The translations under genes were made by a program, and so were the position numbers. The notes beneath the pieces were generated by a model. It made no database searches and was not told the DNA's origin. It was given only the letters and a program-made list of their open reading frames with translations. From the NCBI RefSeq assembly GCF_006658505.1, contig NZ_VFUZ01000005.1:1-64000 (forward strand): a stretch of DNA of 64,000 nucleotides, in the 5' to 3' direction. The DNA is from Mesorhizobium sp. B2-4-15. GTDB lineage: Bacteria > Pseudomonadota > Alphaproteobacteria > Rhizobiales > Rhizobiaceae. Of this stretch, positions 34,565-64,000 are shown in pieces. Within the stretch, counting starts at the first letter, position 1. Each line of letters starts with the position of its first letter.

Positions 34565-34658
34565 TTCTACACTACCTTGCGCTCACATCGTTGCGCTGCT
34601 CTCAGTGCAACCGCCCCAGCGCTCCGGCGACTGGGGTTTTCCTTTTTTAGGGCTATTT

Positions 34659-34829: not shown

Positions 34830-34949
34830 GATCTCAACCTAGACGTTTTCAGGTGAATCTGATACGCAATGGCGCGAAGATGCCGATGCTATGGACGCAC
34901 CGCCACCTTCGTTCTTACCCCTTGTGGAAGGGGGCAGGGTGAACCGCCG

Positions 34950-34988
34950 TTAGGCGGCTACCGGTATTCTCCGGGTCATGAACCACAT
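34950..34988 (-). CDS. Possible 12-codon leader peptide
   Basis: A minimal frame, MWFMTRRIPVAA, preceded at the right distance by a strong ribosome site (aaggagg). Its stop overlaps a stem (gccgcctaacggcggtt). It lies upstream of the 56-aa gene on the same strand. A strong site before so short a frame suggests translation-coupled control such as attenuation, or a chance remnant. Confidence 0.35.
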   Translation of the reverse strand: MWFMTRRIPVAA

Positions 34989-35061
34989 GACACATCCTCC
35001 TTTCTCGCTTGGGCTCTGTGTCGCGACCGCCGGCAAGCTAAACCGCGACACACTCGATCTC

Positions 35062-35904: not shown

Positions 35905-36058
35905 TTTGCCTCTACCTCTTGGCTGTCATGTAACAGCCTCCAAGTGAGTCGGCAAGCCACATAGGGGAGGGATAACTATGAGCTAGTTCTTGCGCCTTGC
36001 ATATCGCCAGAGCGGCAATTCCAACTGCACCGCCTTTCGGAAGTGTGTTCGCTTCGCG

Positions 36059-49179: not shown

Positions 49180-49382
49180 GCATGACCCAATCCGCAAAAC
49201 GCAAATCGCTCTGGCCGCGCTGGGCCAGGCGCGGTGTGATGGAAAACGTCGCCACAGCGCTCATCGCCATCGGCTTCCTGATGCTGTTCCAGCCCTTCGC
49301 GCTGTCGCTCTACACCTATTCCTTCATCACCATGCTTGCTGGCACCGTGATGTTCATCGTCGTCTCGAAGTTCCCGGAATAA
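49176..49382 (+). CDS. Small two-helix membrane protein of the ABC operon
   Basis: 68 residues with a basic N-terminus (SAKRKSLWPRWARRG) and two hydrophobic stretches (VATALIAIGFLMLFQPFAL and YSFITMLAGTVMFIVV). It overlaps the permease gene by four bases and ends two bases before the first ATPase gene, so it is part of the operon. Similar small proteins occur in the two-ATPase glycerol-type ABC operons of rhizobia. A role as transporter accessory subunit is likely but unproved. Confidence 0.78.
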   Translation: MSMTQSAKRKSLWPRWARRGVMENVATALIAIGFLMLFQPFALSLYTYSFITMLAGTVMFIVVSKFPE

Positions 49383-49384
49383 TC

Positions 49385-50497
49385 ATGGCCGAGATCCGCG
49401 TCCAACACCTGAGGAAGGCCTTCGGCGACTTCGTTGCCGTGCAGGATTCCAACTTCGTCGTCGAGGACGGCGAGTTCTTCGTCATGCTTGGGCCGTCCGG
49501 CTGCGGCAAGACGACGACCCTGCGCATGATCGCCGGACTCGAATTGCCGACCGGCGGCCAGATCCTGCTCGACGGCGAGGACGTCACCATGCTCAGGGCA
49601 CGCGAGCGCGACATCGCCTTCGTCTTCCAGCTGTTCGCGCTCTATCCGCACATGAATGTGCGCAAGAACATCGGCTTCCCGCTTTTGGCGCAAGGCAAGC
49701 CGTCGGCGGAAATCCGCACAAGGGTCGAGGAAACGGCCAAGCTGCTGCGCATCGACCATCTGCTCAACAAATCCGTCTCGGGTCTTGCCGGCGGCGATCG
49801 CCAGCGCGTGGCGCTTGGCCGCGCCATCGTGCGGCGGCCAAAATGCTTCCTCATGGACGAGCCGCTGGGCACGCTCGACACCGAATTCCGCGATCTGATG
49901 GTGCATGAACTGCGCGAACTGCACAACCGGATCCACGCCACAACGGTCTATGTCACGCACGACCAGATGGAAGCGATGTCGATGGCCGACAAGATCGCTG
50001 TGATGAACCATGGCGTCATCGAACAATTCGGGAGCCCACGCGAAATCTACGACCGGCCGGCGACCGTGTTCGTCGCCGACTTCATCGGCTCGCCGCCGAT
50101 GAATTTTCTCAAGTTCGGCGGCGGGCTTGCCAAGGGTGCCAGGGAGATCGTGGTGCAGGGCGCGACGGTCGCGGTGCCGGAGGTGCGCGAGGACATCGCG
50201 CCAGCCGACATGGCGCTCGGCATCCGCCCGGAGCACATCCGTTTCGACGATGCCTCCAAGCTGCGCGGCGCCATCTACGGCACCGAATATCTCGGCACGA
50301 CGCAGATCGTCGCCGTGGAAACGGCGGACGGCATCATCAAGGCGCGGGTACCGGCCGAGATCCGGCTCAATGCCGGCGACCATGTCGGCCTGGCCCTGAA
50401 CAGCGCGCGGCTGTCGCTGTTCGACAGGGGCTCCGGCCGCGCCGTGAAGACGGCGATCCACGATACTGCCTCGGAGCGGAGAGCGCGGCATGGCTGA
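49385..50497 (+). CDS. ABC transporter ATP-binding protein, subunit 1 (UgpC/MalK type)
   Basis: Nucleotide-binding subunit (370 residues). Walker A is GPSGCGKTTTLRM (about 38-50) and Walker B is CFLMDEPLGTLD. The signature motif is unusual: LAGGD (in SGLAGGDRQRVALGRA) instead of LSGGQ. A C-terminal TOBE/MalK-type domain follows (PADMALGIRPEHIRF). The next gene encodes a second, distinct ATPase, so the transporter probably uses a heterodimer with one non-standard ATP site. The two genes overlap by 8 bases. Confidence 0.92.
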   Translation: MAEIRVQHLRKAFGDFVAVQDSNFVVEDGEFFVMLGPSGCGKTTTLRMIAGLELPTGGQILLDGEDVTMLRARERDIAFVFQLFALYPHMNVRKNIGFPLLAQGKPSAEIRTRVEETAKLLRIDHLLNKSVSGLAGGDRQRVALGRAIVRRPKCFLMDEPLGTLDTEFRDLMVHELRELHNRIHATTVYVTHDQMEAMSMADKIAVMNHGVIEQFGSPREIYDRPATVFVADFIGSPPMNFLKFGGGLAKGAREIVVQGATVAVPEVREDIAPADMALGIRPEHIRFDDASKLRGAIYGTEYLGTTQIVAVETADGIIKARVPAEIRLNAGDHVGLALNSARLSLFDRGSGRAVKTAIHDTASERRARHG

Positions 50498-51503
50498 TGT
50501 GCGCATCAAGAACGTGACCAAGAGTTTTGGTGAGCATGTCGCCGTCAACGGTCTCGATCTGCATATAGCCGACGGCGAATTCGTCGTGCTGCTCGGGCCG
50601 ACCGGGGCCGGCAAGACGACGACGCTGCGGCTGATCGCGGGGCTGGAACGGCCGGATGCCGGCACGATCGAGATCGGCGGCCATAATGCTACGACACTGT
50701 CGCCGGCCGAGCGCGACACGGCTTTCGTCTTCCAGCAATATTCGCTCTATCCGCATCTGTCGGTGTTCGAGAATCTCGCCTTCCCGCTGCGCTCGCCGGC
50801 GCGGAGAACGCCGGAGGACCAGATCCGCCGCCGCGTCGAGGAAGTGGCGAAGATGGTGCGCATCCATCACAAGCTCGCCAACCGCTCGACCAAGCTCTCG
50901 GGCGGTGAAATGCAGCGCGTCGCCATCGGCCGCGCGCTGGTGCGCAAGCCCGCCATCTACCTGATGGACGAGCCGCTGTCCTCGCTCGACGCCAAGCTGC
51001 GGGCGGATTTGCGGCTCGAGCTGAAGCGCATCCAGTCCGAACTCGGCGCCACCATGCTCTACGTCACCCACGACCAGATCGAGGCGATGACCATGGCCGA
51101 CCGCATCGGCATCCTCGCCGATGGCGTGCTGGTGCAGATCGGCTCGCCTCGCACGATCTATTCGGAGCCGGCGAACCTGCATGTCGCGGCAAGGCTCGGC
51201 CAGCCCGCGATCAATCTTTTGCCCATGGGGTTGCTTCCCGATGGCGGCGTGCCGGCCGGCACGAAGACGATCGGCGCGCGCACCGAACATCTGGCGATCG
51301 AAAAGGCCGTGAATGGCCATGCCGACGGCGTCGTCGACTGGGTCGAGCATCTCGGCGACCAGAACCATCTGCATGTGACGGTGGGGCCGAAGAAACTGGT
51401 GACGCTGACCGACCCCGACACCGATTTGGGGCAAGGCGACAGGGTGGTGATCCGCTACCGCTCGCCGCTCTATTTCGGCGCGGATGGACAGAGATTGATG
51501 TGA
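50490..51503 (+). CDS. ABC transporter ATP-binding protein, subunit 2 (UgpC/MalK type)
   Basis: Second nucleotide-binding subunit (337 residues). Walker A is GPTGAGKTTTLRL (about 36-48), the signature is canonical (KLSGGEMQRVAIGRAL) and Walker B is IYLMDEPLSSLDAKLR. The C-terminal regulatory domain is shorter than in subunit 1. With subunit 1 it resembles the GlpS/GlpT pair of the rhizobial glycerol transporter, although the gene order here is different. It ends 69 bases before the fused kinase gene. Confidence 0.92.
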   Translation: MADVRIKNVTKSFGEHVAVNGLDLHIADGEFVVLLGPTGAGKTTTLRLIAGLERPDAGTIEIGGHNATTLSPAERDTAFVFQQYSLYPHLSVFENLAFPLRSPARRTPEDQIRRRVEEVAKMVRIHHKLANRSTKLSGGEMQRVAIGRALVRKPAIYLMDEPLSSLDAKLRADLRLELKRIQSELGATMLYVTHDQIEAMTMADRIGILADGVLVQIGSPRTIYSEPANLHVAARLGQPAINLLPMGLLPDGGVPAGTKTIGARTEHLAIEKAVNGHADGVVDWVEHLGDQNHLHVTVGPKKLVTLTDPDTDLGQGDRVVIRYRSPLYFGADGQRLM

Positions 51504-51572
51504 ACGGTTCTTGGCGCCCCGCCAAGGTGACGCCGGCTTCTGATTGACGATTGCGAATACGGGACGAATTCG

Positions 51573-53216
51573 ATGAAGCACTTTTTCAACCGCAGGGAAA
51601 CGATCGTCACGGAGGCGCTTGACGGCCTTTTGCGGACCACTGGTTCCGGAGAGCTCGCGCGCCTCGACGGCTATCCCGAGATCAAAGTCGTGCTGCGCGC
51701 CGGCTGGGACAAGACGAAGGTCAGCATCGTCTCCGGCGGCGGTGCGGGACACGAGCCATCGCACGCCGGCTTTGTCGGCAAGGGCATGCTGACAGCGGCG
51801 GTGTCGGGCGAGATCTTTGCCTCGCCAAGCGTCGAAGCGGTGCTGGCCGCCATCCGCGCGGTCACCGGCCCGGCCGGCTGCCTGCTGATCGTGAAGAATT
51901 ACACCGGTGACCGTCTCAATTTCGGCCTGGCCGCCGAGAAGGCGCGCGCCGAAGGTTTTGCCGTCGAGATGGTGATCGTCGCCGACGACATCGCGCTGCC
52001 CGACATCGCCCAGCCGCGCGGCGTCGCCGGCACGCTGTTCGTGCACAAGATTTCGGGCCATCTGTCAGAAGCAGGCCACGACCTGGCCGACATCGCGGCC
52101 GCTGCACGCGCGGCGGCGAAGGACATCGTCTCGCTCGGCCTGTCGCTGTCGTCCTGTTCCATCCCCGGCCAGCCGCATGAAGACCGGTTTGGCGCCGATG
52201 ATGGCGAGCTTGGCCTTGGCATCCATGGCGAGCCTGGTGTCGAACGCATCGCAGTGCAAAGCGCCGACCGGCTGGTGGCGATCATGACGGAGCGCCTGGC
52301 GGCGCGGCTCGACCCGAAGGCCAACCATGCCCTGCTGATCAACAATCTAGGCTCGGTGCCGCCGCTCGAAATGTCGCTTGTTGCGAATGCGGTGCTTGCC
52401 TCGCCGCTCGGCAAGTCGGTCAAGCTGGCGATCGGCCCCGGGCCGCTGATGACGGCGCTCAACATGAACGGCTTCTCGCTGTCGCTGATACGGCTTGACG
52501 CGGCCCGCGAGGCCGCCCTGCTGGCGCCGGTCGGCCCGCACGCCTGGATGCCGGCAAGGCCGGTCGCCGCACCTGCTGTCGTGCTGATGGCGAAAGCAGT
52601 CGGACAGAGTGCCGCGCACAAGCCCAGCCAGGACGCCGTCACCAGGCGCCTGATCGTCACGGTCTGCGAAAAACTGATTTCGCTCGAAGCGACATTGAAC
52701 GGACTGGACGCCAAGGCGGGCGACGGCGACACCGGCTCGACGGTGGCGACCGGCGCGCGCAGCATCCTCGAACGGCTTGATGCTTTGCCGCTGGCCAACC
52801 CCACGGCGACCCTTGGCGCGGTGGGTGACATTTTGAGCGCATCGATGGGTGGTTCCAGCGGGGTGCTGCTGTCGATCTTCTTCACCGCGGCGGCACAGGC
52901 CCTGGACGGCGGCGCGCGCGTTGCCCGGGCGCTGCTTGCCGGGCTCGAGCGGATGACCTTCTACGGCGGCGCCAGACCGGGCGACCGCACCATGGTCGAC
53001 GCGCTGGAGCCGGCGCTCAAGGCGTTTGATGCCGAAGGCCTGGAGCAAGCGGCAATAGCGGCCCGGCGCGGTGCAGAGGCCACGGCTGCGATGGAGGAGG
53101 CAAAGGCGGGGCGGTCCGCCTATGTCGGCGCCAAATTGCAGGGCGTGGTCGACCCCGGAGCCCATGCCGTGGCCGAGGCGTTCGCGGCCGCCGCCACGCT
53201 GCTTGTCACGGCCTGA
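51573..53216 (+). CDS. Fused DhaK-DhaL (ATP-type) dihydroxyacetone/ketose kinase
   Basis: 547-residue kinase with both halves in one chain, the layout of ATP-dependent dihydroxyacetone kinases. The DhaK half (1-330) has SGGGAGHEPSHAGFVGKGML and His218 in GLGIHGEPG, the residue that forms a hemiaminal with the ketose. The DhaL half (about 350-547) has the magnesium-nucleotide site Asp379, Asp384, Asp386 in LDAKAGDGDTGS and the MGGSSGVLLSIFF loop. It may phosphorylate dihydroxyacetone or a related ketose such as erythrulose, as some fused homologues do. A separate, PTS-type DhaK/DhaL/DhaM set follows directly, so a different substrate is plausible. Confidence 0.9.
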   Translation: MKHFFNRRETIVTEALDGLLRTTGSGELARLDGYPEIKVVLRAGWDKTKVSIVSGGGAGHEPSHAGFVGKGMLTAAVSGEIFASPSVEAVLAAIRAVTGPAGCLLIVKNYTGDRLNFGLAAEKARAEGFAVEMVIVADDIALPDIAQPRGVAGTLFVHKISGHLSEAGHDLADIAAAARAAAKDIVSLGLSLSSCSIPGQPHEDRFGADDGELGLGIHGEPGVERIAVQSADRLVAIMTERLAARLDPKANHALLINNLGSVPPLEMSLVANAVLASPLGKSVKLAIGPGPLMTALNMNGFSLSLIRLDAAREAALLAPVGPHAWMPARPVAAPAVVLMAKAVGQSAAHKPSQDAVTRRLIVTVCEKLISLEATLNGLDAKAGDGDTGSTVATGARSILERLDALPLANPTATLGAVGDILSASMGGSSGVLLSIFFTAAAQALDGGARVARALLAGLERMTFYGGARPGDRTMVDALEPALKAFDAEGLEQAAIAARRGAEATAAMEEAKAGRSAYVGAKLQGVVDPGAHAVAEAFAAAATLLVTA

Positions 53217-53288
53217 CGCATGCTCCAGTTGTCGAATGGCTGTTCTTTCGCTACTGCGGTCAGGGCGCAAACCAGGAATTTGGCCGAC

Positions 53289-53891
53289 ATGACGGCATTG
53301 AACCTTGCCAGGCTGGTCGCGGCCGCCGCGGATGCGATTGCCGCTCACGCCGATGAATTGACGGCGCTCGACCAGGCGATCGGCGACGGCGACCACGGGT
53401 TGAACATGAAACGCGGCTTCGAGGCCGTGCGGGCCGAGGCCGATCTGTTCGCGGCAAAACCGCTGCCCGAAGCGCTGAAGGCGATCGGCACCAAGCTGGT
53501 GATGACGGTGGGTGGAGCTTCCGGCCCGCTCTTCGGCACGTTGTTCATGGCGCTCGGCAAGGAGATTTCGGCGGACCCCGACCGCGCCGGCCTGACGGCG
53601 GCCTTCGGCAAGGCTATCGGGGCGGTGGCGGCGCGCGGCAAGTCACAGGTTGGCCAGAAAACCATGCTCGATGTGCTGCAGCCGGTGCATCGGGCCTTGG
53701 CCGAGGGAAAGACGGCGGCTGAAATAGCCGACATCGCCGACATCGCCGCCAAGGCGACCGTGCCCATGAAGGCGTTGCGCGGCCGCGCCTCGTTCCTCGG
53801 CGACCGCTCGATCGGCCATATGGATGCCGGCGCGCGCTCGACCGCGCTGCTGGTGCGTACAGTGGCGGAAACCATCGGGGAGGTTGCCTGA
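53289..53891 (+). CDS. dhaL: PTS-type dihydroxyacetone kinase subunit DhaL
   Basis: ADP-binding subunit (200 residues from MTALNLARLV). In PTS-type systems the ADP stays bound and is rephosphorylated by DhaM. The ligands Asp28, Asp33 and Asp35 are in ALDQAIGDGDHGLNM; the phosphate loop is VGGASGPLFGTLFM and the end has SIGHMDAGARSTALL. The frame is open upstream to 53220, but those residues are not family-like. The stop overlaps the dhaM start by one base. Confidence 0.92.
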   Translation: MTALNLARLVAAAADAIAAHADELTALDQAIGDGDHGLNMKRGFEAVRAEADLFAAKPLPEALKAIGTKLVMTVGGASGPLFGTLFMALGKEISADPDRAGLTAAFGKAIGAVAARGKSQVGQKTMLDVLQPVHRALAEGKTAAEIADIADIAAKATVPMKALRGRASFLGDRSIGHMDAGARSTALLVRTVAETIGEVA

Positions 53892-54280
53892 TGAGCAATG
53901 TCGGGATCGTGATCGTGTCGCATTCGCCGCTGGTCGCGGAGGGCACGGCCGACATGGTGCGCCAGATGGTGGGCGACGAAGTGCCGCTTGCATGGTGCGG
54001 CGGAAACGGCCATGGCGGGCTCGGCACCAATGTCGAGGCGATCATGGGCGCAATCGACCAGGCCTGGTCGGAAGCCGGCGTCGCCATTCTCGTCGATCTC
54101 GGCGGCGCCGAGACCAACTCGGAAATGGCGGTCGAGATGATCGGCGAGCCGCGTGCGCACAAGATCGTCGTCTGCAACGCACCGATCGTCGAGGGCGCGG
54201 TGATGGCGGCGACAGAGGCGTCCGGCGGCGCCTCGCTGAAAGAGGTGGTGGCGACGGCGCACGAATTGTCGCCGTCGTGA
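53891..54280 (+). CDS. dhaM: PTS-type phosphocarrier DhaM (EIIA-Man-like domain only)
   Basis: 129-residue protein equal to just the first domain of Escherichia coli DhaM. The phosphorylated His11 is in VIVSHSPLVAEG, followed by GGNGHGGLGTN and LVDLGGAETNSEM typical of EIIA-Man-type folds in DhaM. E. coli DhaM continues with HPr and Enzyme I-like domains; here those functions are encoded by separate genes immediately downstream. It passes phosphate from HPr to DhaL-ADP. Confidence 0.92.
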   Translation: MSNVGIVIVSHSPLVAEGTADMVRQMVGDEVPLAWCGGNGHGGLGTNVEAIMGAIDQAWSEAGVAILVDLGGAETNSEMAVEMIGEPRAHKIVVCNAPIVEGAVMAATEASGGASLKEVVATAHELSPS

Positions 54281-54301
54281 GTGAACAGGAACGTTGAACC
54301 T

Positions 54302-54604
54302 ATGTCCGCAGCCACCGAAGCGACCGTCCTGATCACCCATGCGGTGGGCCTGCATGCGCGCCCTTCGGTGAAGTTTACCAAGCTGGCCAAGACCTTTGCC
54401 GCCGATGTCGAGATCGCGCTTGCCGCCAATGGGCCGTGGTTCGACGCCAAGAGCATCGTCAAGGTGATGGCGGCCAAGGCGCCGAAGGGCACGTTGCTGC
54501 ACATCAGGGCCAGGGGTGATGGCGCCAATGATGCCGTCGATGCGCTGGTCGATCTGGTGCGGCGCGACTTCGACGAAGGCGCGGACCATGCTCGTACCGC
54601 TTAG
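54302..54604 (+). CDS. HPr phosphocarrier protein, dedicated to the Dha system
   Basis: 100-residue HPr. The active-site His18 is in AVGLHARPSVKFT, and the DAKSIVKVMA segment holds Ser51 at the place of regulatory Ser46. It is encoded between dhaM and an Enzyme I gene and overlaps the latter by 17 bases, so it very likely serves DhaM rather than the nitrogen-PTS. An in-frame ATG at 54281 would add 7 residues. Confidence 0.93.
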   Translation: MSAATEATVLITHAVGLHARPSVKFTKLAKTFAADVEIALAANGPWFDAKSIVKVMAAKAPKGTLLHIRARGDGANDAVDALVDLVRRDFDEGADHARTA

Positions 54605-56174
54605 GCTCCAAGGCATTTCCGCCTCGGCCGGCTATGCCGAGGGGCCGCTGTTCGATCTCGATCGGCCACCGGCCGTCTACGCCAGCAAAGCCACCGCGGC
54701 GGAAGAGAAGGCGTCGCTGGAAGCCGCGATCGGCAAGGCGCTGAAACGGCTTGCCGCCATGGTCGAAGCCGCAGACCGCGACGCCGCCAGCATACTCGAA
54801 TTCCACATCGCCATGCTGGAGGACGACACGCTGAGCGAACCGGCCTTCGCGTCGATCGTTTCCGGACAGACCGCCGACACCGCCTGGCGAGAGGCACTCA
54901 ATGGTGAGATCGCCGGCTACGAAGCCTCCGACCAGGATTATTTTCGCGCTCGCGCCGCGGACCTGCGCGATATCAGGGATCAAGTGCTGCGTGCCCTCAC
55001 CGAGGACGAGGACCGCGCCGCGCCTTCGGGCGCCATCCTGTTCGGCGAGGACATCGCGCCGACGCGTTTTCTTGAAACCGACTGGACGAACGGCGGCGGC
55101 ATCGCGTTGCAGGCGGGCAGCACCGCCAGCCATGTCGCCATGCTGGCGCGATCGCGCGGCGTGCCGATGGTGGTTGGGCTGCGCCAATTGGAGGCCAATC
55201 TGGCCGGCCTCGCTTTGCTCGACGCCGAGCACGGCAGCATCGTGCTGGCGCCCTCGCCGGCGGAGGTCGTCTCCTTCCGGCAATTATCCTCTTCTTTCAC
55301 GACCCGCCAAGGCAAGGCACGGACCTTCCTGGCACGGCCGGCGGTTACCAAGACCGGCACGGCGGTGCGCGTGCAGGTCAACATCGCCGGCCCGTCCGAT
55401 GTCGACGCCATCGACATCGCGACCTGCGACGGGGTCGGCCTGATGCGGACCGAATTCCTGTTCGGCAAGACCCTGCCGGATGAGGAGACGCAATACCACG
55501 CCTACCGCAAGGTGCTGGAATGGGCCGGCGACAAGCCAGTGACGATCCGCACCGTCGATGCCGGCGGCGACAAGCCGGTGCCAGGCTTCACCGTCGAGGA
55601 AGGCAACCCGTTCCTTGGCCTGCGTGGGATCAGGCTGTCGCTGGCGCGGCTCGACATATTCCGCGTTCAGATCAGGGCATTGCTGCGCGCCGCACCACAC
55701 GGCAATCTGAAAGTGATGTTTCCGATGATCGCCATGGCTGAGGAATATGAGTGCGCGGCCGCCTTGTTCGCCGAAGAACAGGCGGCGCTTGCCGCGCGCG
55801 GCGTCACGCGGCAGATGCCGCCGCTCGGCATCATGGTCGAGGTGCCGTCGGTGGCCATCGCGCCGGAGGCGTTCGCCAACGTCGCCTTCTTCTCCATCGG
55901 CTCCAACGACCTGACGCAATATGTGATGGCGGCGGCGCGCGACAATGCAGCAGTCGCGCATCTCAATTCCGTCCGCCATCCTGCCGTCCTGCGGCTGATC
56001 GGCTCGGTTGTGGCCTTCGGGCGGGACAATGGCATTCCCGTCAGCCTGTGCGGCGATGCCGGTGGCGATCCTGCGTCGATCCCATCGCTGCTGGAAGCCG
56101 GCCTGCGCGACCTTTCCGTCGCGCCGGCGCAACTCGCCATGGCCAAGGCGGCCATATCGGATATTTCGGTCTAG
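54588..56174 (+). CDS. ptsI: PEP-protein phosphotransferase (Enzyme I), dedicated to the Dha system
   Basis: Complete Enzyme I (528 residues) that takes phosphate from phosphoenolpyruvate and gives it to HPr. The phosphohistidine His182 is in GSTASHVAMLARSRGVPMVVG. The PEP-binding barrel has TCDGVGLMRTEFLFG, FSIGSNDLTQYVMAAARDN and the catalytic Cys in SLCGDAGGD (most relatives read CGEMAGD). A GAF-type extension seen in PtsP of the nitrogen-PTS is absent, so this is the sugar-type enzyme. With HPr, DhaM, DhaL and DhaK it makes the relay complete within one operon. Confidence 0.94.
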   Translation: MLVPLRLQGISASAGYAEGPLFDLDRPPAVYASKATAAEEKASLEAAIGKALKRLAAMVEAADRDAASILEFHIAMLEDDTLSEPAFASIVSGQTADTAWREALNGEIAGYEASDQDYFRARAADLRDIRDQVLRALTEDEDRAAPSGAILFGEDIAPTRFLETDWTNGGGIALQAGSTASHVAMLARSRGVPMVVGLRQLEANLAGLALLDAEHGSIVLAPSPAEVVSFRQLSSSFTTRQGKARTFLARPAVTKTGTAVRVQVNIAGPSDVDAIDIATCDGVGLMRTEFLFGKTLPDEETQYHAYRKVLEWAGDKPVTIRTVDAGGDKPVPGFTVEEGNPFLGLRGIRLSLARLDIFRVQIRALLRAAPHGNLKVMFPMIAMAEEYECAAALFAEEQAALAARGVTRQMPPLGIMVEVPSVAIAPEAFANVAFFSIGSNDLTQYVMAAARDNAAVAHLNSVRHPAVLRLIGSVVAFGRDNGIPVSLCGDAGGDPASIPSLLEAGLRDLSVAPAQLAMAKAAISDISV

Positions 56175-56185
56175 GCACGGCTGGC

Positions 56186-56611
56186 ATGGTCGACAACACA
56201 CCCGAACCCGGTTCCGAAGAGGCGATCCGCGCCTACAAGACAATCCTGTCGCAGGTCATCGACCAGCGCCCGTCCGGCATGCGCCAGCGCCTTGCCGACG
56301 CGCTTGGCAAGCACCGCAGCTTCGTCACGCAGATTTCGAGCCCCGCCTATTCGATCCCCATCCCCTCAAAGCATCTGCCTTCAATCTTTTCCGTCTGCCA
56401 TTTCAGCCCGGCCGAGCGGGATCAGTTCCTTGCCGCCTACCATCAGGCACATCCGGGAAAAATGTCGATCGCGGCGGGCATGCGCAAGACACGGCATGTT
56501 TCTCTGGTCGTGCCCGATTTCGGCGACGACAAGCAGAACGCAGCGCTCGACCGGGCGATCAACGAATTCATTCAGAAGATCACCAGCATCGCCGGCAAAG
56601 GTAGCAGCTGA
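56186..56611 (+). CDS. Small HTH-like protein in the Dha operon
   Basis: 141 residues, no named family recognised. Residues about 30-55 (GMRQRLADALGKHRSFVTQI) look like the first part of a helix-turn-helix of the Xre type. The middle holds YSIPIPSKHLPSIFSVCHFS and the next stretch ERDQFLAAYHQAHP is helical. It starts 11 bases after ptsI and ends 32 bases before dhaK, so it is part of the operon. It could be a local regulator of Dha synthesis or a structural partner; nothing decides. Confidence 0.6.
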   Translation: MVDNTPEPGSEEAIRAYKTILSQVIDQRPSGMRQRLADALGKHRSFVTQISSPAYSIPIPSKHLPSIFSVCHFSPAERDQFLAAYHQAHPGKMSIAAGMRKTRHVSLVVPDFGDDKQNAALDRAINEFIQKITSIAGKGSS

Positions 56612-56643
56612 CCATTTCTTGCCGGGCTGTTTGGGAGGACGCC

Positions 56644-57630
56644 ATGAAGAAATTTATGAACGCGGTGGACACGGTGCTGACCGAGAGCCTCGACGGTTTC
56701 GTGGCCGCCCATGCCGATATACTGGTGCTTGGCGAGGAGCATAAATTCATCCGCCGCAGGAGCTTGCGGCCAGGCAAGGTGGCGCTGATCTCCGGAGGTG
56801 GCTCGGGCCACGAGCCGCTGCATGGCGGCTTTGTCGGCCAGGGCATGCTGGATGCCGCCTGCCCCGGCCAGGTTTTCACCTCGCCGACGCCGGACCAGAT
56901 GCTGGCGGCGGCGCAGGCTGTCGACACCGGCGCCGGCTGCCTGTTCATCGTCAAGAATTATGAGGGCGACGTGATGAACTTCGACATGGCGGCCGAAATG
57001 TCGGAAGGCATCCTGCAGGTGGTGACCAATGACGACGTCGCCGTCGAGAATTCTTCCTACACGACCGGCCGGCGCGGCGTCGCCGGCACGCTGGTGGTGG
57101 AAAAGATCGTCGGCGCGGCCGCCGAGCATGGCCTGGCCCTCCCGATGCTGAAGACGCTGGGCGAGCGCGTCAATGCCGCGACCCGCTCAATGGGCGTGGC
57201 GCTGACCAGTGGCACGGTGCCGGCCGCAGGCAAGCCGACCTTCGACATCGGCGACGGCGAGATGGAGTTCGGCGTCGGCATCCATGGCGAACCCGGCCGC
57301 CGCCGCGACAGGTTGAAAAGCGCCGACGCGATCGCCGAGGAAATCTGCACCGCTATCCTGGGCGATCTCGGCGACAGGGCGACAGGCCGGGCGCTGCTGT
57401 TCGTCAACGGCTTCGGCGGCACGCCGCTGATGGAACTCTATCTGATGTACAACAGCGCACGCCGGATCTTCGAGAGCCACGGCATAACGATCACCCGCTC
57501 GCTCGTCGGCGCCTATGTCACCTCGCTCGACATGGCCGGCTGCTCGATCACGCTCACCATGCTCGACGACGAGATGACAGGCTGGTGGGACGCCCCCGTC
57601 CACACGGCGGCGCTGCGCTGGGGCATGTAA
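56644..57630 (+). CDS. dhaK: PTS-type dihydroxyacetone kinase subunit DhaK
   Basis: Substrate-binding subunit (328 residues). His214 in GVGIHGEPGRRRD is the residue that binds the carbonyl of dihydroxyacetone covalently. Other family segments are ISGGGSGHEPLHGGFVGQGM and LFIVKNYEGDVMNFDMA. Phosphate comes from the ADP/ATP held by DhaL. This DhaK has no DhaL fused, and it is the partner missing between the DhaL/DhaM genes upstream. It is the last gene of the operon. Confidence 0.94.
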   Translation: MKKFMNAVDTVLTESLDGFVAAHADILVLGEEHKFIRRRSLRPGKVALISGGGSGHEPLHGGFVGQGMLDAACPGQVFTSPTPDQMLAAAQAVDTGAGCLFIVKNYEGDVMNFDMAAEMSEGILQVVTNDDVAVENSSYTTGRRGVAGTLVVEKIVGAAAEHGLALPMLKTLGERVNAATRSMGVALTSGTVPAAGKPTFDIGDGEMEFGVGIHGEPGRRRDRLKSADAIAEEICTAILGDLGDRATGRALLFVNGFGGTPLMELYLMYNSARRIFESHGITITRSLVGAYVTSLDMAGCSITLTMLDDEMTGWWDAPVHTAALRWGM

Positions 57631-57700
57631 GACTGGCTTCAGACATGCGTTTCTGCGACCATCGTGCACAACCCTATTGTCTGCAACATTGTCCGGCTTG

Positions 57701-58837
57701 ATGCTGCCACCCCTGACACCCGCCGACGAAAAACTGTTGCTGCGCTTCGCCGATCCGGAGTCCGCGGCGGTCGACGACAATTTGTCGGCAAAGGCTCTGT
57801 CGGCACTGCTCGACAATGCCGAATTCCACGGCATTCTGCCGATCATGCTGCGCAAGCTCCGTGAGCGTGGCGACGTCCGTTTGCCTGATGATCCTGCCTT
57901 GCAGCTGAAGCTGTCGGGACTGCGTGATCAGGCGACGATTGCCACCGGCCAGTCGATGCTGCTGCAGTATCATGGCGACCGCATCATGAAGGGAATGGCG
58001 GCGGAAGGCATTCCGGCGCGGATCGTCAAGGGCCCTGTCTTCGCGCGAAAGCTTTACCGCAACGTATCCGACAGGCCGTTCACCGACATCGACATTCTCG
58101 TCGAGCCCGCCAACCTCGCGCGGGCCAACCGGGTGATCGCGGCATGCGGCTTCGAGCTTGGCAGCGACGAAGCCGAATCCTACCGGTTGCAGGAATTCAA
58201 ATGGCTGGAAAAGGAGAATTCCAGCCTGCTGGTCGAACTGCATGGCGACCTTGTGCACGACACCGGCATGCGGCGGCGCCTGTCACTGGGGTTCCGCGAA
58301 TTGGGTATCATCGACGGCGAGACTGCGGACACGCCGGCCGCGCTTTTGACGATCGCCATCGTGCACGCCGCCGGCGGCCACAAATTCCACCGGCTGCAGC
58401 TTTGCGTCGACGTTCTGCAAGGCGTGCGTGCGCTGCAATCATCCCAATCGGAAACCCGCCTGCTCGACGCCGCGCGCATGACCGGCATCGAACTCGAACT
58501 GGCGATCGTGCTCAATGTGACCGGCGAACTGTTCGGGGAGCACCGCGCGCTCGAGCTTGCCGGGCGGATCAAGCCCGACCTCTCGATAAGGCTGGCCAAG
58601 CGGCTGATCACGACCAATACGCTGCTCAGGGTCAATTCCCGGGAAAAGATCGGCTCGCGCCTGCGCCGCGATGCTTTCCGCTGGATCCAGCGGCTGGCGA
58701 AGGCCAGAGCAATTCCGGGGGAAAGTGTGAAGCGGTTTTCCGTCTGGAAATTGCCGCGGGGATTCAGTTCGACGCAGCCAGCGTATCCAGGATCAGCGCC
58801 GCCGCGTCGGCCGGGCGCGTGCCGACTTCCAGGGTAA
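57701..58837 (+). CDS. NTP_transf_5-like nucleotidyltransferase
   Basis: 378-residue protein of the family often found in lasso-peptide and polysaccharide clusters. The signature is ARIVKGPVFARKLYRNVSDR, then PFTDIDILVEP, with the Asp-x-Asp metal site. The ATG used has no strong ribosome site; TTG at 57677 would add 8 residues. The natural end seems replaced: from about residue 337 the frame runs through a palindromic repeat (58709-58754) and then antisense through the end of the convergent HPr-kinase-like gene, for a 74-base overlap. Confidence 0.8.
   Translation: MLPPLTPADEKLLLRFADPESAAVDDNLSAKALSALLDNAEFHGILPIMLRKLRERGDVRLPDDPALQLKLSGLRDQATIATGQSMLLQYHGDRIMKGMAAEGIPARIVKGPVFARKLYRNVSDRPFTDIDILVEPANLARANRVIAACGFELGSDEAESYRLQEFKWLEKENSSLLVELHGDLVHDTGMRRRLSLGFRELGIIDGETADTPAALLTIAIVHAAGGHKFHRLQLCVDVLQGVRALQSSQSETRLLDAARMTGIELELAIVLNVTGELFGEHRALELAGRIKPDLSIRLAKRLITTNTLLRVNSREKIGSRLRRDAFRWIQRLAKARAIPGESVKRFSVWKLPRGFSSTQPAYPGSAPPRRPGACRLPG
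58709..58754. repeat. GCAATTCC...GGAAATTGC palindromic repeat, copy 1
   Basis: 46-base palindromic element: gcaattcc at the left, ggaaattgc at the right, with gggggaaagtgtgaagcgg between. A related copy lies in inverse orientation at 63197-63238. It forms part of the coding frame of the nucleotidyltransferase, giving residues AIPGESVKRFSVWKLPRG. Confidence 0.8.
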
Positions 58838-59750
58838 AGGTCGGCACCGAGGAGACCAGCTTGCCGATCGTCGCCAGCCGGCGCTTCTGCAGCGGCAACA
58901 GGCCGGTCATGCCGGTGCGGACATTGTCCATCGCCAGCGCCACCATTGCGTCGGTCCGGGCCATGGGTAAGAGCCGGGTCTCATTGTCGACGGACCGGGC
59001 TAGATGCAGAAGGGCCGCCACCAGCCTGGCGGCCGGGCTTTCGATTCGTGCTATCTCGGCCAGCCGCTCCAGCGAGACCGCCTGTTCCCCGTTGCGGTCC
59101 CATGACGGACCAAGGCATGGCGACACGAGCGGGATCATCGCGGCGGTCTTCTGGTGGATCTTGACGTGGCGCGGCAAACCCCAGGCCACAGGCCTGGCCG
59201 AAGCGACGTTCAGGATCATGGCGTCGTCGGAGCAAAGGCCGAAGCCTTGCGTTGCCAGCGCCAGCGACGTGGTGGTCTTGCCTGTGCCGCTTGGCGCGTG
59301 GATCAGCACGACAGCGTCACGATCGGGTAGCGTCAGGCCGGCGGTGTGCAGCATATGCTGGCCGCCGGCATCGAGCGCGGCGTCCAGCACCAGCATCGAC
59401 GGCGTCCAGGCCGCTTTCGTACCGGGGCGGACCCGGAGTTTCGCCCAGCCCTCCTTGTCATTCATCGCCACCGTCTGGCGCCCTGGAAAGACGAGATGGA
59501 CCGTGCCGCCTTCCGCGATCATCCGGCAGTAGCCGTCTTCCGGTATCTCTCCTTCGAAGACGAGCGACCCGTTGGGTTCTTCCTCCAGAACATCCGTCTC
59601 GGTGATATCAAGGTGAAAGCCCGGCTCGACGGCAGCTCCCATGCGCATGATGCCTAGCATCCTGTCGAAATCCTGCCACAGCTCGGGACGGTCGGCCGAT
59701 ATGCCGAGAACCTGGCCGTTGAGGCCATAGCATGTTGAAAGTCGGGTCAA
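58764..59750 (-). CDS. HPr-kinase-like P-loop protein
   Basis: 328-residue protein with a single P-loop kinase domain in its middle: Walker A HAPSGTGKTTTSLALA (about 151-166) followed by GFGLCSDDAMILN, the layout of HprK-related proteins. The first 140 residues are not similar to the HprK N-terminal domain. Such proteins are found in lasso-peptide gene clusters, where some phosphorylate the peptide. Its start overlaps the stop of the B2-like gene by four bases (ATGA), so they are coupled. No precursor is visible, so the substrate is unknown. Confidence 0.77.
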   Translation of the reverse strand: MTRLSTCYGLNGQVLGISADRPELWQDFDRMLGIMRMGAAVEPGFHLDITETDVLEEEPNGSLVFEGEIPEDGYCRMIAEGGTVHLVFPGRQTVAMNDKEGWAKLRVRPGTKAAWTPSMLVLDAALDAGGQHMLHTAGLTLPDRDAVVLIHAPSGTGKTTTSLALATQGFGLCSDDAMILNVASARPVAWGLPRHVKIHQKTAAMIPLVSPCLGPSWDRNGEQAVSLERLAEIARIESPAARLVAALLHLARSVDNETRLLPMARTDAMVALAMDNVRTGMTGLLPLQKRRLATIGKLVSSVPTFTLEVGTRPADAAALILDTLAASN

Positions 59751-60181
59751 GCGCGACCCACCTCTGTGGCATCGGCATGGTGGCGATAGATCTCGACCAT
59801 ACCGGGAAGACTGTCACTGACCACCGGCTTGCCATCGAGGCAGACCCAGCAATGGGCCGACAAATGCTGCGCCTGCAGCGATTTCGGATCGACGCCGAAA
59901 CGCAGCTCCGGATCGAAGCCGGCGAAGCGCAGGAAACGATGGCCGAGCAGACCCTCGCGCAGACATCTGCGGTCGCGCATCAGCCAGGGATGGCGCACGG
60001 TGCGGTTGACGCGGGCGACGATGTAGACGGCTGGCAGGCCGCGATAGGGTGTCGGCGAGGCGAGCGGCGCCCATTTCAGCACCTCCTCGAAATCGCGGTT
60101 GGCTATGAGGACCGGCATCAGCCGCGCGCTTGCCCAGAGATGGCAGCGAAACAAAGTACGCAGGAGCGGACCGTCGGCCAT
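59747..60181 (-). CDS. Lasso-peptide B2-like (transglutaminase-fold) protease
   Basis: 144-residue protein with the transglutaminase-like fold used by the B2 leader peptidase in lasso-peptide synthesis. Cys73 (RDRRCLREGLLG), His110 (LSAHCWVCLDG) and Asp116 are in the expected order for the catalytic triad. It starts 16 bases after the PqqD-like gene and is coupled to the HPr-kinase-like gene. The frame is open to 60337 but the upstream part overlaps the PqqD gene and is not family-like. Confidence 0.8.
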   Translation of the reverse strand: MADGPLLRTLFRCHLWASARLMPVLIANRDFEEVLKWAPLASPTPYRGLPAVYIVARVNRTVRHPWLMRDRRCLREGLLGHRFLRFAGFDPELRFGVDPKSLQAQHLSAHCWVCLDGKPVVSDSLPGMVEIYRHHADATEVGRA

Positions 60182-60197
60182 CAGGCGCGTCCCTTCA

Positions 60198-60482
60198 TCA
60201 GGCGCTAGGTGCGGCGAGGATACCTTCCGAGACCAGATCTGTGGCGAGTGTCGCCATGTCCTCGTCGAGCGTATCCTTGTCGACCTCGAACTCCTCGCAA
60301 AGCAGGCCGACGATCTGATCAAGGCTGCGGGCGCCATCGACCTTGTCTAGAAAGGCTTCGGTCGTACCGTTGCAGGTGTAGAGTTGGCCGCTGCGCGCCA
60401 GAAGCACGACGGCCCCATCGCCGACATGCTGGACCGAGGCGTCGTCCGCCAGCCGCAAAACCGTCCCAGAAACAATTTCCAT
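60198..60482 (-). CDS. PqqD-family (RiPP recognition element) protein
   Basis: 94-residue PqqD-like protein. It begins MEIVSGTVLRLADDASVQHV, contains the typical ARSGQLYTCNGTTEAFLDKV and DQIVGLLCEEFEVD, and ends in a helical part. In RiPP pathways this fold grips the leader of the precursor peptide (the B1 role in lasso clusters). It is the first gene of the PqqD-B2-kinase trio. The extended frame to 60605 adds 41 residues without similarity. Confidence 0.83.
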   Translation of the reverse strand: MEIVSGTVLRLADDASVQHVGDGAVVLLARSGQLYTCNGTTEAFLDKVDGARSLDQIVGLLCEEFEVDKDTLDEDMATLATDLVSEGILAAPSA

Positions 60483-60749
60483 CCCCAACCCCAAAAAGCC
60501 ATGCAAAACCCCGAAATGAGATAGCGCGGTGATGGGGCGCTGTCTATCAGCCGGGGAGATAGTCCATGCCGGTTTGCGTTTTGCAGGCGACCACCGGTGG
60601 CGCATGCGCTCCCCTCAATGCCGTACTTCACCGCGGTGGGCGTCTCCGTTCAGGACGAGACCATCTCGGACGAAAATCGGGGAAGACATCGCCGGAAAAA
60701 ACAGCATAGGCTATCACAAAGACGGCAAATCGATCCTGGGAGGATGTGG
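60483..60749. other. Gap searched for a RiPP precursor
   Basis: 270 bases between the PqqD gene and the propionyl-CoA synthetase gene. Both promoters must lie here. I looked for a 35-55-codon minus-strand frame ending in a core that starts with Gly and has Asp/Glu at position 7-9, as in lasso precursors, and found none with a ribosome site. A 94-codon GTG frame here (60347-60631, minus) is out of frame with PqqD and looks random. Confidence 0.5.
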
Positions 60750-62657
60750 ATGGCTTCACGCTATCACGAGGTCTATGACGGCTGGAAACGCGATCCGGAA
60801 AAATTCTGGGCGGACGCGGCCGTCGCTATCGATTGGTACTCGCCCTGGGACAAGGTGTTCGATGCCACGGCCGGCGTCTACGGCCGCTGGTTCACCGGCG
60901 CGACCTGCAACACCTGCTACAACGCCATCGACCGCCATGTCGCCGGCGGGCGCGCCGATCAGATTGCGCTGATCCATGACAGCGCCATCACTGGAACGGT
61001 GAAGAAATTCACCTATGCCGAGCTCAAGCGCGAAGTGGTGGCGCTGACCTCGGTGCTGAAGAATCGCGGCATCGGCAAGGGCGACCGTGTCATCATCTAC
61101 ATGCCGATGGTGGCAGAGGCGGCGATCGCCATGCTCGCCTGCGCCCGGATCGGTGCGGTGCATTCGGTCGTTTTCGGCGGCTTTGCCTCGCATGAGCTTG
61201 CCACCCGCATCGATGACGCCAGGCCGAAGCTGATCATCTCCGCCTCCTGCGGCCTTGAGCCAGGCCGCATCGTGGCCTACAAGCCGCTGCTCGACAGGGC
61301 GATCGAGATGTCCCGCCACAAGCCGGACGCCTGCCTGATCCTGCAGCGCGACCAATTGCGCTGCGATCTGAAGGACCATTTCGACATCGACTATGCCGAC
61401 GCCGTCGCCCGCGAGCGGGCGGCCGGCGCCAATGTCGACTGCGTGCCGGTGCTCGCCACCGACCCGCTCTACATCATCTACACGTCGGGCACGACGGGTC
61501 AGCCCAAGGGCATCGTGCGCGACAACGGCGGCCACATGGTCGCGCTGAAATGGACGATGGAGAACGAATTCGGCGTCAAGCCGGGCGAGGTGTTCTGGGC
61601 GGCGTCCGATGTCGGCTGGGTGGTCGGCCATTCCTACATCGTCTACGGACCGCTGCTGCATGGCTGCACCAGCATCCTGTTCGAAGGCAAACCGATCGGC
61701 ACGCCCGACGCCGGCACTTACTGGCGCGTCATTGCCGAACACGGCGCCGTCGCGCTGTTCACCGCGCCGACAGCCTTCCGTGCCATCAAGGGGCAGGATC
61801 CCAGGGGCGAGTTCGTTCCCAAATACGATCTGTCGAAATTCCGCACGCTGTTCCTCGCCGGCGAGCGCGCCGATCCCGAAACCATCAAATGGGCGGAGCA
61901 GAAATTGAACGTGCCCGTCGTCGATCATTGGTGGCAGACGGAGACCGGATCGCCGATGACGATCAACCCGGCCGGCCTCGGCCTGCTGCCGGTGAAATAT
62001 GGCTCGCCCGGCGTGCCGATGCCCGGCTACGACATCCGGGTGCTCGACGACGCCGGCCACGAAGTGCCGCGCGGCACGCTGGGCAATGTCGTGGTCAAGC
62101 TGCCATTGCCGGCCGGCTGCCTGCCGACCTTGTGGAACGCCGATGCCCGCTTCCGCCAAGCCTATCTCGACGAGTTCCCCGGCTTCTACAAGACGGCCGA
62201 TGCCGGCATGATCGACGAAGACGGCTATCTCTACGTGATGGCTCGCACCGACGACATCATCAATGTCGCCGGCCATCGGCTGTCGACCGGGGCCATGGAA
62301 GAGGTGCTGGCCGCCCATCCCGACGTCGCCGAATGCGCCGTCGTCGGCATTGCCGATGCCATGAAGGGCCAGGTGCCGCTCGGCTTCGTGGTGCTCAATG
62401 CCGGTGTCGCGCGCGATGGGGATGCCATTGAGAAGGAGGTTGTCGCGCTGGTGCGCGAACGCATCGGCCCGGTCGCCGCCTTCAAGACCGTGGTGATGAT
62501 CAAGCGCCTGCCCAAGACGCGGTCGGGGAAGATCCTGCGCGGCACCATGCAGAAGATCGCCGACAAGGAAGAGTGGGCCATGCCGGCGACCATTGACGAC
62601 CCGGCCATCCTCGACGAGATCACCGCCGCCCTGAAGGAACGCGGGATCGGGGTTTGA
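60750..62657 (+). CDS. prpE: Propionyl-CoA synthetase (PrpE-like acyl-CoA synthetase)
   Basis: AMP-forming acyl-CoA synthetase of the PrpE/ACSS type (635 residues from MASRYHEVYDGWKRDPEKFW). The nucleotide loop is YTSGTTGQPKGIVRDNGG (about 248-265). Substrate-side segments include ASDVGWVVGHSYIVYGPLL and DHWWQTETGSP. The lysine acetylated in this family is in KTRSGKILRGTM (about 590). It activates propionate, and perhaps acetate, to its CoA thioester. The start has a very good site (gggagga). A strong terminator follows. Confidence 0.93.
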   Translation: MASRYHEVYDGWKRDPEKFWADAAVAIDWYSPWDKVFDATAGVYGRWFTGATCNTCYNAIDRHVAGGRADQIALIHDSAITGTVKKFTYAELKREVVALTSVLKNRGIGKGDRVIIYMPMVAEAAIAMLACARIGAVHSVVFGGFASHELATRIDDARPKLIISASCGLEPGRIVAYKPLLDRAIEMSRHKPDACLILQRDQLRCDLKDHFDIDYADAVARERAAGANVDCVPVLATDPLYIIYTSGTTGQPKGIVRDNGGHMVALKWTMENEFGVKPGEVFWAASDVGWVVGHSYIVYGPLLHGCTSILFEGKPIGTPDAGTYWRVIAEHGAVALFTAPTAFRAIKGQDPRGEFVPKYDLSKFRTLFLAGERADPETIKWAEQKLNVPVVDHWWQTETGSPMTINPAGLGLLPVKYGSPGVPMPGYDIRVLDDAGHEVPRGTLGNVVVKLPLPAGCLPTLWNADARFRQAYLDEFPGFYKTADAGMIDEDGYLYVMARTDDIINVAGHRLSTGAMEEVLAAHPDVAECAVVGIADAMKGQVPLGFVVLNAGVARDGDAIEKEVVALVRERIGPVAAFKTVVMIKRLPKTRSGKILRGTMQKIADKEEWAMPATIDDPAILDEITAALKERGIGV

Positions 62658-62668
62658 GGCGCCGCTTC

Positions 62669-62701
62669 GCTTGCCGATGGGCCTATCTTTGATCGGCAAG
62701 C
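62669..62701 (+). terminator. Terminator after propionyl-CoA synthetase
   Basis: A perfect 10-bp stem gcttgccgat / atcggcaagc with a 13-base loop, followed by aatacttttattg. It begins 12 bases after the stop codon. Confidence 0.85.
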
Positions 62702-62711
62702 AATACTTTTA

Positions 62712-62927
62712 TTGTGCAATGCAGCAAGCCACCCTACAGTGATTGACGGGGGGCCATCGACAAGGTCGCATGGCTCAAAAGAAAATCACGTGCCTTATCT
62801 CCTGTCGATGGCAGTGGTCGCCGCGACCATGATCGCGGCAAGCTGGCTGGTGGCCACCGAGGCCGAACCGCGTATCCGGCTGCTGCTCGACCACACCGTT
62901 TTCCGCTACCGGATGAAGGCAGCGTAA
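62712..62927 (+). CDS. Possible small single-helix membrane protein
   Basis: Open frame of up to 71 residues. Its C-terminal part has a convincing membrane segment (LLSMAVVAATMIAASWLVA) followed by a charged tail (EAEPRIRLLLDHTVFRYRMK). The first 26 residues look random, and a GTG at 62788 or an ATG at 62808 may be the true start. No neighbour suggests a role. Called because of clean helix-plus-tail organisation only. Confidence 0.4.
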   Translation: MCNAASHPTVIDGGPSTRSHGSKENHVPYLLSMAVVAATMIAASWLVATEAEPRIRLLLDHTVFRYRMKAA

Positions 62928-63139
62928 CCGCCACGGTGTGAACCCTCTCGGCCTGCCCGCCACACGCAATCGGACGCCTTCGAAGCGGCGCATCTTCTCG
63001 ACCGCTGGGTGATGTACGGCCATACGCCGGTGGACAAGCCGAGGATCGAGGGATGCAGGCTGAGGCATAGGCTCCGCCGTCTTCCAGAGCGGCGGCCTGT
63101 CCGGATTCGCCGACAAGCAGAGCCGGCTGATCTTTTCCT

Positions 63140-63180
63140 GGGGACAGCTCACCGTTTCACGGAAACGGTGAGCTGTCCCC
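63140..63180. repeat. Perfect 19-bp hairpin repeat
   Basis: Left arm 63140-63158 (ggggacagctcaccgtttc) and right arm 63162-63180 are exact complements with a 3-base loop (acg). Its length and perfection suggest a REP-like mobile palindrome or a bidirectional transcription stop. No second copy in this window. Confidence 0.9.
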
Positions 63181-63196
63181 AACTCTTTGTTTTGAT

Positions 63197-63238
63197 GCAA
63201 TTCCGACGGAAACCGTCTGACATTCTCCCTGGAATTGC
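63197..63238. repeat. GCAATTCC...GGAATTGC palindromic repeat, copy 2
   Basis: 42-base element with perfect outer arms gcaattcc / ggaattgc. Its reverse complement aligns with the copy at 58709-58754 over most of its length. It lies about 20 bases after the stop of the autokinase gene. Confidence 0.8.
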
Positions 63239-63256
63239 CGAGGAGCGCAAGCGCGG

Positions 63257-64000
63257 CTAGACGGGTGCCTTGCTGCGCACTTCCGACTTGTCGAGATAGT
63301 AGGTCGAGTATTTGTCGAAGAATTTCTCCGAGGCCCCGAACGATCCGTATTTGGCCAGCTTCTTCAGGTCGACCTTGTTCAACACCACCCCGACGATCTT
63401 GTTGGCGACATAGGGTTCGGATTCCAGCATCGACCGCACCATGGCGCGCGGCGTGCGCCCCCACTCGGTGACCAGCACGAAGCCGTCGACGAGCGGCGCG
63501 AAGGCCTTGGCGTCGACAACCGGCCCGAGCGGCGGCAGGTCGACGACGATGTATTCGAACGTCTCCTTGGCGTTCTCGATGAAGCGCCGCATCCCGGCCG
63601 AGGAAAGCAGCTCGCTGGTATGCGAGAAGTGCCCGCGCGACACGGCCGGGATGATGGCCAGCTTGGTCTGCCGGTCGATCTTGCCGACCGACTGCCAGGT
63701 CTGGCCACTCACCACCGCTTCCATCAGCCCCTGGTCGGCTTCCATGCCAAGGCCGCGGCTGAGGCCCGGATTGCGCAGGTCACCGTCGATGAGCAGCGTC
63801 CTGGCGCCATTGGCGGCAAGCAGCCCGGCCAGATTGGCCGCGACCGTCGACTTGCCTTCGCCGGGAAGGACCGAGATGACGCCGATGACGCGGCTTCCTT
63901 GCCCTTCCAGCACGACGTCGAAAGCGATCTTGGCGCTGCGCAACGTTTCGGCGAACATCGATGCCGGAGCGTCGATGCTCACCCTCATGCGCGCGCGCCT
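63257..64000 (-). CDS. Exopolysaccharide tyrosine autokinase, C-terminal part (runs off window)
   Basis: Cytoplasmic kinase domain of a BY-kinase/ExoP-type polysaccharide chain-length protein. The frame is open through the right edge, so only the end of the gene is seen. Motifs: Walker A VLPGEGKSTVAANLAGLL, A' TLLIDGDLRNP and Walker B YIVVDLPPLGP. The pattern APASMFAETLRSAKIAFDVV just before the kinase is the linker that follows the second membrane helix in ExoP/Wzc. A short Tyr cluster near the C-terminus (FDKYSTYYLDK) provides the autophosphorylation sites. An in-frame ATG at 63988 is probably internal. It would control polymer length in surface polysaccharide export. Confidence 0.9.
   Translation of the reverse strand, partial: RRARMRVSIDAPASMFAETLRSAKIAFDVVLEGQGSRVIGVISVLPGEGKSTVAANLAGLLAANGARTLLIDGDLRNPGLSRGLGMEADQGLMEAVVSGQTWQSVGKIDRQTKLAIIPAVSRGHFSHTSELLSSAGMRRFIENAKETFEYIVVDLPPLGPVVDAKAFAPLVDGFVLVTEWGRTPRAMVRSMLESEPYVANKIVGVVLNKVDLKKLAKYGSFGASEKFFDKYSTYYLDKSEVRSKAPV

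Follow-up and report, generated by a model that had tools for sequence, protein, structure and literature searches.

The question raised by this locus is what a set of lasso-peptide maturation genes does without a lasso cyclase. We analyzed the first 64,000 nucleotides (the window) of contig NZ_VFUZ01000005.1 (C45) of Mesorhizobium sp. B2-4-15, whose genome has 6.09 Mb. Four adjacent window genes, here called the quartet, encode a PqqD-family protein comparable to lasso B1, which is a recognition element (RRE) for ribosomally synthesized and post-translationally modified peptides (RiPPs); a B2 transglutaminase-fold cysteine leader peptidase; a kinase resembling HPr kinase (HprK); and an NTP_transf_5 nucleotidyltransferase-like (NT) protein. 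The original prediction had described a partial lasso-like cluster without cyclase (C) or visible precursor (A), and had left three options: a remnant, a cluster whose missing parts lie elsewhere, or genes that act on some other peptide by a route still to be described. Judged from sequence comparisons, we give a probability of about 0.7 that the quartet serves as the maturation cassette of a RiPP system that is related to lasso systems and works without a cyclase. A conserved quartet lacking C and a co-occurring peptide family support the third option. Our best reading, drawn by analogy, is an RRE-guided, B2-cleaved and kinase-phosphorylated linear peptide system, which would be an alphaproteobacterial, B2-using analogue of the linear polyphosphorylated peptides (LPP) of Bacillota.

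All four genes lie where they had been predicted, and PF05402, NF033537, PF13471 and PF14907 all score above their cut-offs (Table 1; for B2, PF13471 gives 42.3 bits with a cut-off of 26). The B2 protein contains the predicted Cys73 and His110, and also Asp116. The kinase has His135, a P-loop SGTGK (154-158) and Asp175-Asp176, and the NT protein has a DxD at 137/139. The RRE, B2, and kinase genes are tightly spaced on one strand, while the NT gene is convergent with this trio, outside its operon, and overlaps the 3' end of the kinase gene. No cyclase was found among the window genes, and searches for Rfam families, tRNAs and PADLOC systems yielded nothing of use.

The quartet recurs well beyond this genome. 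Within the genus, where its presence was scored by the kinase, 97 of 146 genomes are positive. A sample of the family (394 genomes, 109 genera) gave the kinase in 23 genomes of 10 genera, and 18 of these genomes lie outside the genus, in nine other genera. We compared 34 quartet loci, namely the window, G073 of the same genus, the 18 outside the genus and 14 from a named collection, whose relatives with 65-79% kinase identity are Mesorhizobium and one record named only Rhizobiales. Each locus spans about 10 kb on either side or stops where the contig does; for the window, the stretch taken was 49001-64000. The lasso clusters of the host genome (G000) and of G073 lie farther away, beyond these stretches. 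The kinase and PqqD are found in all 34, B2 and NT in 33 each, and C in none, which is the neighborhood comparison of C-less trios that the prediction had proposed as a check. With 34 such loci, the recurrence of the quartet is not chance. As a control, 28 of 37 B2 loci of a class-wide sample have C in the fetched stretch; nine lack it, some of them near contig ends. Catalytic residues are also retained: Cys and His of B2 in 33 of 33 rows, His135, Lys158, Asp175, Asp176 and the P-loop residues of the kinase in 34 of 34, and K118, G119, D137 and D139 of NT in 33 of 33. In a B2 tree that took 24 of the 33 quartet rows, and for which the program warned of long branches, all 24 fall on one side of a branch with support of 85/95 and 88% of 200 bootstraps. 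A class-wide kinase search that scored five candidates per genome gave one distant relative, the locus L143 of G534, a genome from a different family within the class; it encodes PqqD, kinase and NT, and no B2 was matched there. It may be a further variant and was excluded from the 34.

Short open reading frames (ORFs) upstream of the quartets outside the genus encode a repeated short peptide, five times in tandem in L129, for example. A pattern search, followed by a profile trained on 14 quartet-side peptides, added more, bringing L131 to 10 peptides; L138 and L140 also have pattern matches. NCBIfam and Pfam gave only sub-threshold matches to these peptides, lasso-leader models among them. 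In the genus, at E <= 1e-7, the peptide is present in 97 of 97 kinase-positive and 1 of 49 kinase-negative genomes (Fisher p 5e-38, relatedness ignored), and the one kinase-negative genome with the peptide, G667, has 11% contamination. Kinase-positive genomes of the genus have 4-29 peptide matches each at E <= 1, spread over numerous contigs. Of the 18 quartet genomes from other genera, 14 contain at least one match at E <= 0.01. Near the quartet, 13 of 19 loci (the 18 plus G073) have a match within the fetched 20 kb at E <= 0.35, as do 7 of the 14 named loci at E <= 1e-3. At this last threshold the quartet loci gave 30 matches, whereas 600 kb of class B2 and lasso loci and five dinucleotide shuffles of 380 kb gave none. 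The host genome has six matches on three other contigs (Table 1).

The peptides have a leader of the form Y(-17)xxP(-14)xL(-12)...[T/V/A](-2)A(-1), in full YxKPxLxKRxKLSxV[T/V]A. There are 124 distinct peptides; all but one (123) passed E <= 0.35, and a pattern divided 119 of them into leader and core, the other four being dropped. The Y-17/P-14/L-12 spacing is found in 117 of the 119, although the split pattern permits 17-19 and favors the shortest, so that the spacing is partly imposed. Ala(-1) ends 116 of these 117 leaders, and position -2 is T in 61, V in 39, A in 16 and M in one. The cores are mostly 5-20 residues long with outliers up to 84, and all 112 unique cores contain Ser or Thr (mean 97.6 and maximum 108 in 5000 shuffles), most commonly at positions 3, 4 and 5 (27, 48 and 38%). 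Asp or Glu at core positions 7-9, as needed for a lasso ring, is found in 15 of 119, nine of which start with G/A/S/C, and is missing from 104. Among 124 closer pairs, mismatches at codon positions 1/2/3 are 0.13/0.07/0.32 in the leader and 0.50/0.48/0.51 in the core (equal-length cores only, ungapped), a pattern indicating that the leader is translated and conserved and that the core is hypervariable. A Shine-Dalgarno-like site precedes 41 of 126 peptide genes, compared with 5.9% of all ATGs. Two Cys residues occur in three of the four cores of the host cluster L204.

The substrates of the quartet are probably this mostly unannotated family of about 26-45 residues; we infer this link, as we do every chemical step proposed below. 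On plasmids, the peptide query matched 4 of 72,556 records, all Mesorhizobium; three of the best places have no annotated feature (the gene table is incomplete) and one is a hypothetical protein. The kinase query had no plasmid match. Peptides on plasmids and the kinase on none suggest that the cassette acts in trans. The peptides might instead be a genuine small-protein family, such as regulatory micro-proteins, unlinked to a quartet that acts elsewhere, and many copies in the genus do lie far from the quartet beside unrelated genes. We regard this as unlikely given that peptide genes stand in tandem next to quartets of other genera, and given the near-perfect co-occurrence and the lasso-type spacing of the leader.

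The search for an AsnB-like cyclase in the host genome, proposed with the original prediction, gave one C, which lies 24 kb from the quartet on the same contig in a complete lasso cluster (L009:5863-13393, where L009 is C45:76001-96000; C45 ~81.9-89.4 kb). This cluster includes A, B1, B2, C, an HprK-like kinase, an ABC transporter and an NT-like gene, and it sits within an apparent exopolysaccharide gene region. Its predicted core starts GGGGNTATD, and a ring to Asp9 is likely. The quartet could be a second tailoring set sharing C and the precursor of this cluster in trans. The two share a contig both in the host genome (G000) and in G073, and the lasso leader, by inspection, is likewise Y(-17)xxPxL. 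However, the lasso cluster comes with a B1, B2, kinase, transporter and NT-like gene of its own. Where its B1, B2 and kinase align with the quartet proteins, identity is only 26-31% (26% for PqqD and B1), and its B2 falls outside the quartet clade, next to the lasso B2 of G073. The host cyclase therefore belongs to a second, separate system, and the quartet's own cluster is not missing one. Moreover, in whole-genome searches, four quartet genomes from other genera (G025, G131, G038, and G085) each had a single B2, that of the quartet, and none of their scanned proteins reached the cut-off for a lasso cyclase, weak 20-32-bit matches in ORFs of about 370-475 aa having been set aside. Five large AsnB-like proteins in G025, G038 and G085 correspond to asparagine synthase or N-acetylglutaminylglutamine amidotransferase models and reach 157-262 bits against the NF033535 cut-off of 525; G131 has no strong Asn_synthase match. 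We rejected the shared cyclase on the C-free genomes, as far as their proteins were scanned, and the separate B2 clade, and consider it quite improbable. The idea that missing parts lie elsewhere thus applies to the precursors, which are scattered over the genome, and fails for the cyclase.

The kinase could also be an HPr kinase for an adjacent dihydroxyacetone phosphotransferase system (PTS), with the other three genes as bystanders. Directly beside the quartet, in the window (51573-57630) and in G073, lies a dihydroxyacetone-kinase/PTS-like operon, whose genes we take to be DhaK, DhaL, DhaM, HPr-like (54281-54604), enzyme-I-like and a second DhaK-like gene. No dha-operon match is listed for the 20 kb that surround four quartets of other genera, and PqqD, B2 and NT accompany the kinase in nearly all loci; on this gene context the explanation was rejected as very improbable. 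Least credible is a lasso cluster that lost A and C: the machinery is that of lasso clusters with kinase and nucleotidyltransferase, and neither gene was found in the window, but we rejected this reading because the quartet, with its catalytic residues and its separate B2 clade, is kept over 10 genera with C in 0 of 34 loci.

Several observations weigh against a cyclase-free cassette. As had been predicted, no precursor is visible in the window, where the peptide profile has no match even at E 0.5, and the nearest known ones are on other contigs. In G751, G844, G880 and G770 the profile has no match at E 0.01, although a looser search gave divergent candidates at the loci of the last three. 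The co-occurrence statistic is uncorrected for phylogeny. Asp116 of the B2 triad is not invariant over the 33 rows, and within 20 kb L138 has no recognizable B2 and L130 no NT. The window kinase matches HprK models weakly and below cut-off, with 30.2 bits for TIGR04352 (HprK-related kinase A) and 22 for TIGR04355, both with cut-offs of 200. Its profile matches the HprK structures 1jb1, 2qmh and 1ko7 with E 2e-4 to 4e-4 in a part limited to 35 residues, and its AlphaFold model is poor (pLDDT 57), as is that of the NT protein (pLDDT 54). No dedicated exporter was identified for the quartet system.

In the cyclase-free system that we favor, the PqqD-like RRE is proposed as an adaptor that would bind the leader through Y(-17)xxP(-14)xL(-12). 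The kinase, aided by the RRE, would phosphorylate one or more core Ser/Thr, mostly at positions 3-5, and B2 cleavage after Ala(-1) would free a linear core of about 5-20 residues. These three steps are inferred from close analogues. More weakly, the NTP_transf_5 protein may modify the phosphate with a nucleotidyl or sugar moiety, and a pair of AMP-ligase and GNAT proteins may acylate the product in some lineages. A single cassette would serve several precursors in trans, many of them far off and some on plasmids. The product might be a signal, a peptide linked to the surface or to EPS, or a bacteriocin.

The closest analogues are LPP and phosphorylated lasso peptides. As described by Popov et al. 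(2026, PMC13381572), LPP systems share with the quartet a discrete RRE, an HprK-like kinase, an NTP transferase, a YxxP leader and the lack of a macrolactam cyclase; the product is linear, which for the quartet is predicted from its genes, and LPP often shares a genome with a lasso cluster, as here. By the same account, the LPP kinase adds several phosphates to Ser3, and a heterologous host showed no change when the NTP transferase was deleted. LPP is described there as restricted to Bacillota and using a SpI/SipW-type peptidase and an MsbA-like exporter, whereas the quartet has B2 and is found in Alphaproteobacteria, in one family by the grouping of the genome tool. Of the 63 Pfam families in 81 neighbor ORFs, the 25 most frequent include no SpI/SipW-type peptidase; B2 is present. 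LPP precursors are given as 35-200 aa, one to three per cluster; those of the quartet are mostly 26-45 aa with cores mostly of 5-20 aa, scattered, with 4-29 matches per genus genome. The LPP leader YxxPxVLxHQxIxFETxxS, as printed there, is unmatched in the quartet peptides, YxxP alone being in common.

Phosphorylated lasso clusters (Bsf, PMC10368454; paeninodin and pseudomycoidin, PMC9266682) have B1, B2, a kinase and a nucleotidyltransferase like the quartet, which, unlike them, has no C gene and no dedicated D gene that we could see. BsfA shows the same Y(-17), P(-14) and L(-12) in its leader, with a -2 residue other than Thr, and carries phosphate on Ser3 (PMC10368454). The His-Lys-Asp-Asp of the quartet kinase is the set of lasso kinases, and the nucleotidyltransferase PsmN of pseudomycoidin is reported to install hexoses on phospho-Ser (PMC9266682). 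Although the quartet has the LPP combination of RRE, HprK-like kinase and NTP transferase without a cyclase and would work like LPP, it is not filed there because of its seemingly different peptidase and its different leader motif and phylum. Nor is it filed as lasso: B1 and B2 are present, yet no C goes with them and most cores have no ring acceptor. The original "lasso-like cluster" thus holds for the common machinery, while the product is probably no lasso. No prior description of the quartet system was found in the literature searched, a scope that did not extend to subscription papers and preprints.

With the odds about even, we propose a new RiPP class in alphaproteobacteria around Mesorhizobium, in which one chromosomal RRE-B2-kinase-NT cassette would act in trans on 4-29 fast-diversifying mini-precursors across the genome, some plasmid-borne, to give families of linear phospho-peptides, acylated by AMP-ligase and GNAT in some genera. 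If true, cyclase-free, phosphate-bearing relatives of lasso peptides would extend from Bacillota to Alphaproteobacteria akin to nitrogen-fixing Mesorhizobium, B2 would work without C, and two thirds of the sampled genus genomes would hold a large, mostly unannotated peptide repertoire. A lasso and a linear system that share a genome, each with YxxP leaders, would also be a second natural pairing in which to ask how cross-talk is avoided. Assays with synthetic peptides could address leader binding by the RRE, cleavage by B2 and phosphorylation by the kinase, since leaders, cores and enzymes alike are short and defined.

Table 1. Features of the window, of the host lasso cluster and of the host peptide genes. 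Plain coordinates refer to the window.
Feature	Position	Strand	Remarks
PqqD-family RRE (B1-like)	60198..60482	minus	94 aa; PF05402 43.7 bits, cut-off 23.4
B2 transglutaminase-fold cysteine leader peptidase	59747..60181	minus	144 aa; NF033537 69.1 bits, cut-off 33
HprK-like kinase	58764..59750	minus	328 aa; TTG start overlaps B2 stop
NTP_transf_5 nucleotidyltransferase-like protein	57701..58837	plus	PF14907 89.7 bits, cut-off 31.2
Intergenic stretch	57631..57700		~70 bp, peptide-free in the window; precursor gene at the same place in G073
PrpE/Acs-like acyl-CoA synthetase	60597..62657	plus	NF007815 742.6 bits, below cut-off 955; divergent from RRE gene
Lasso precursor A	L009:7528-7680		above NF033528 and NF033521 cut-offs
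Lasso cyclase C	L009		NF033535 786 bits, cut-off 525
NT-like gene of lasso cluster	L009:5863-7059		
Host peptides on C22	L204:6830-6919, 7225-7317, 8684-8779, 11967-12062		
Host peptide on C56	L205:7754-7855		
Host peptide on C23	L206:8079-8159		

In G073, the peptide gene (L028:8871-8957, minus) lies between a dha gene and NT. The host peptide cluster at L204:6830-12062 adjoins patatin-like and 2-hydroxyacid dehydrogenase-like genes and, further on, a GntR/FCD-like gene. Beside scattered peptides at 10 loci lies a family of about 310 aa (e.g. L221:6823-7755 and L222:8240-9172), whose L222 member, the one scanned, has no Pfam match; it is a possible regulator, and no other recurrent neighbor explaining the scattered peptides was found. 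DUF6065-like genes occur near the peptides in L137, L139 and L141.

An AMP-binding ligase family of about 475 aa stands beside 11 of the 18 quartets outside the genus, paired in all 11 with a GNAT-like ORF, a call made by similarity to one seed, with some of the reported ORFs overlapping the ligase. The window, G073 and all 14 named loci have the PrpE/Acs-like synthetase instead, which scores 55-62 bits to the ligase seed and is a possible accessory. Elsewhere in the window, three similar ORFs at 21380-24148 start with or hold MKxLVINLDRSPDRLAH-like stretches and are presumably tandem GT25-like glycosyltransferases. The stretch at 32001-37012 has a lower GC content (55-56% at 32-36 kb, compared with about 64%) and, by eye, an adjoining transposase-like ORF (36059-37012), and is possibly an insertion.

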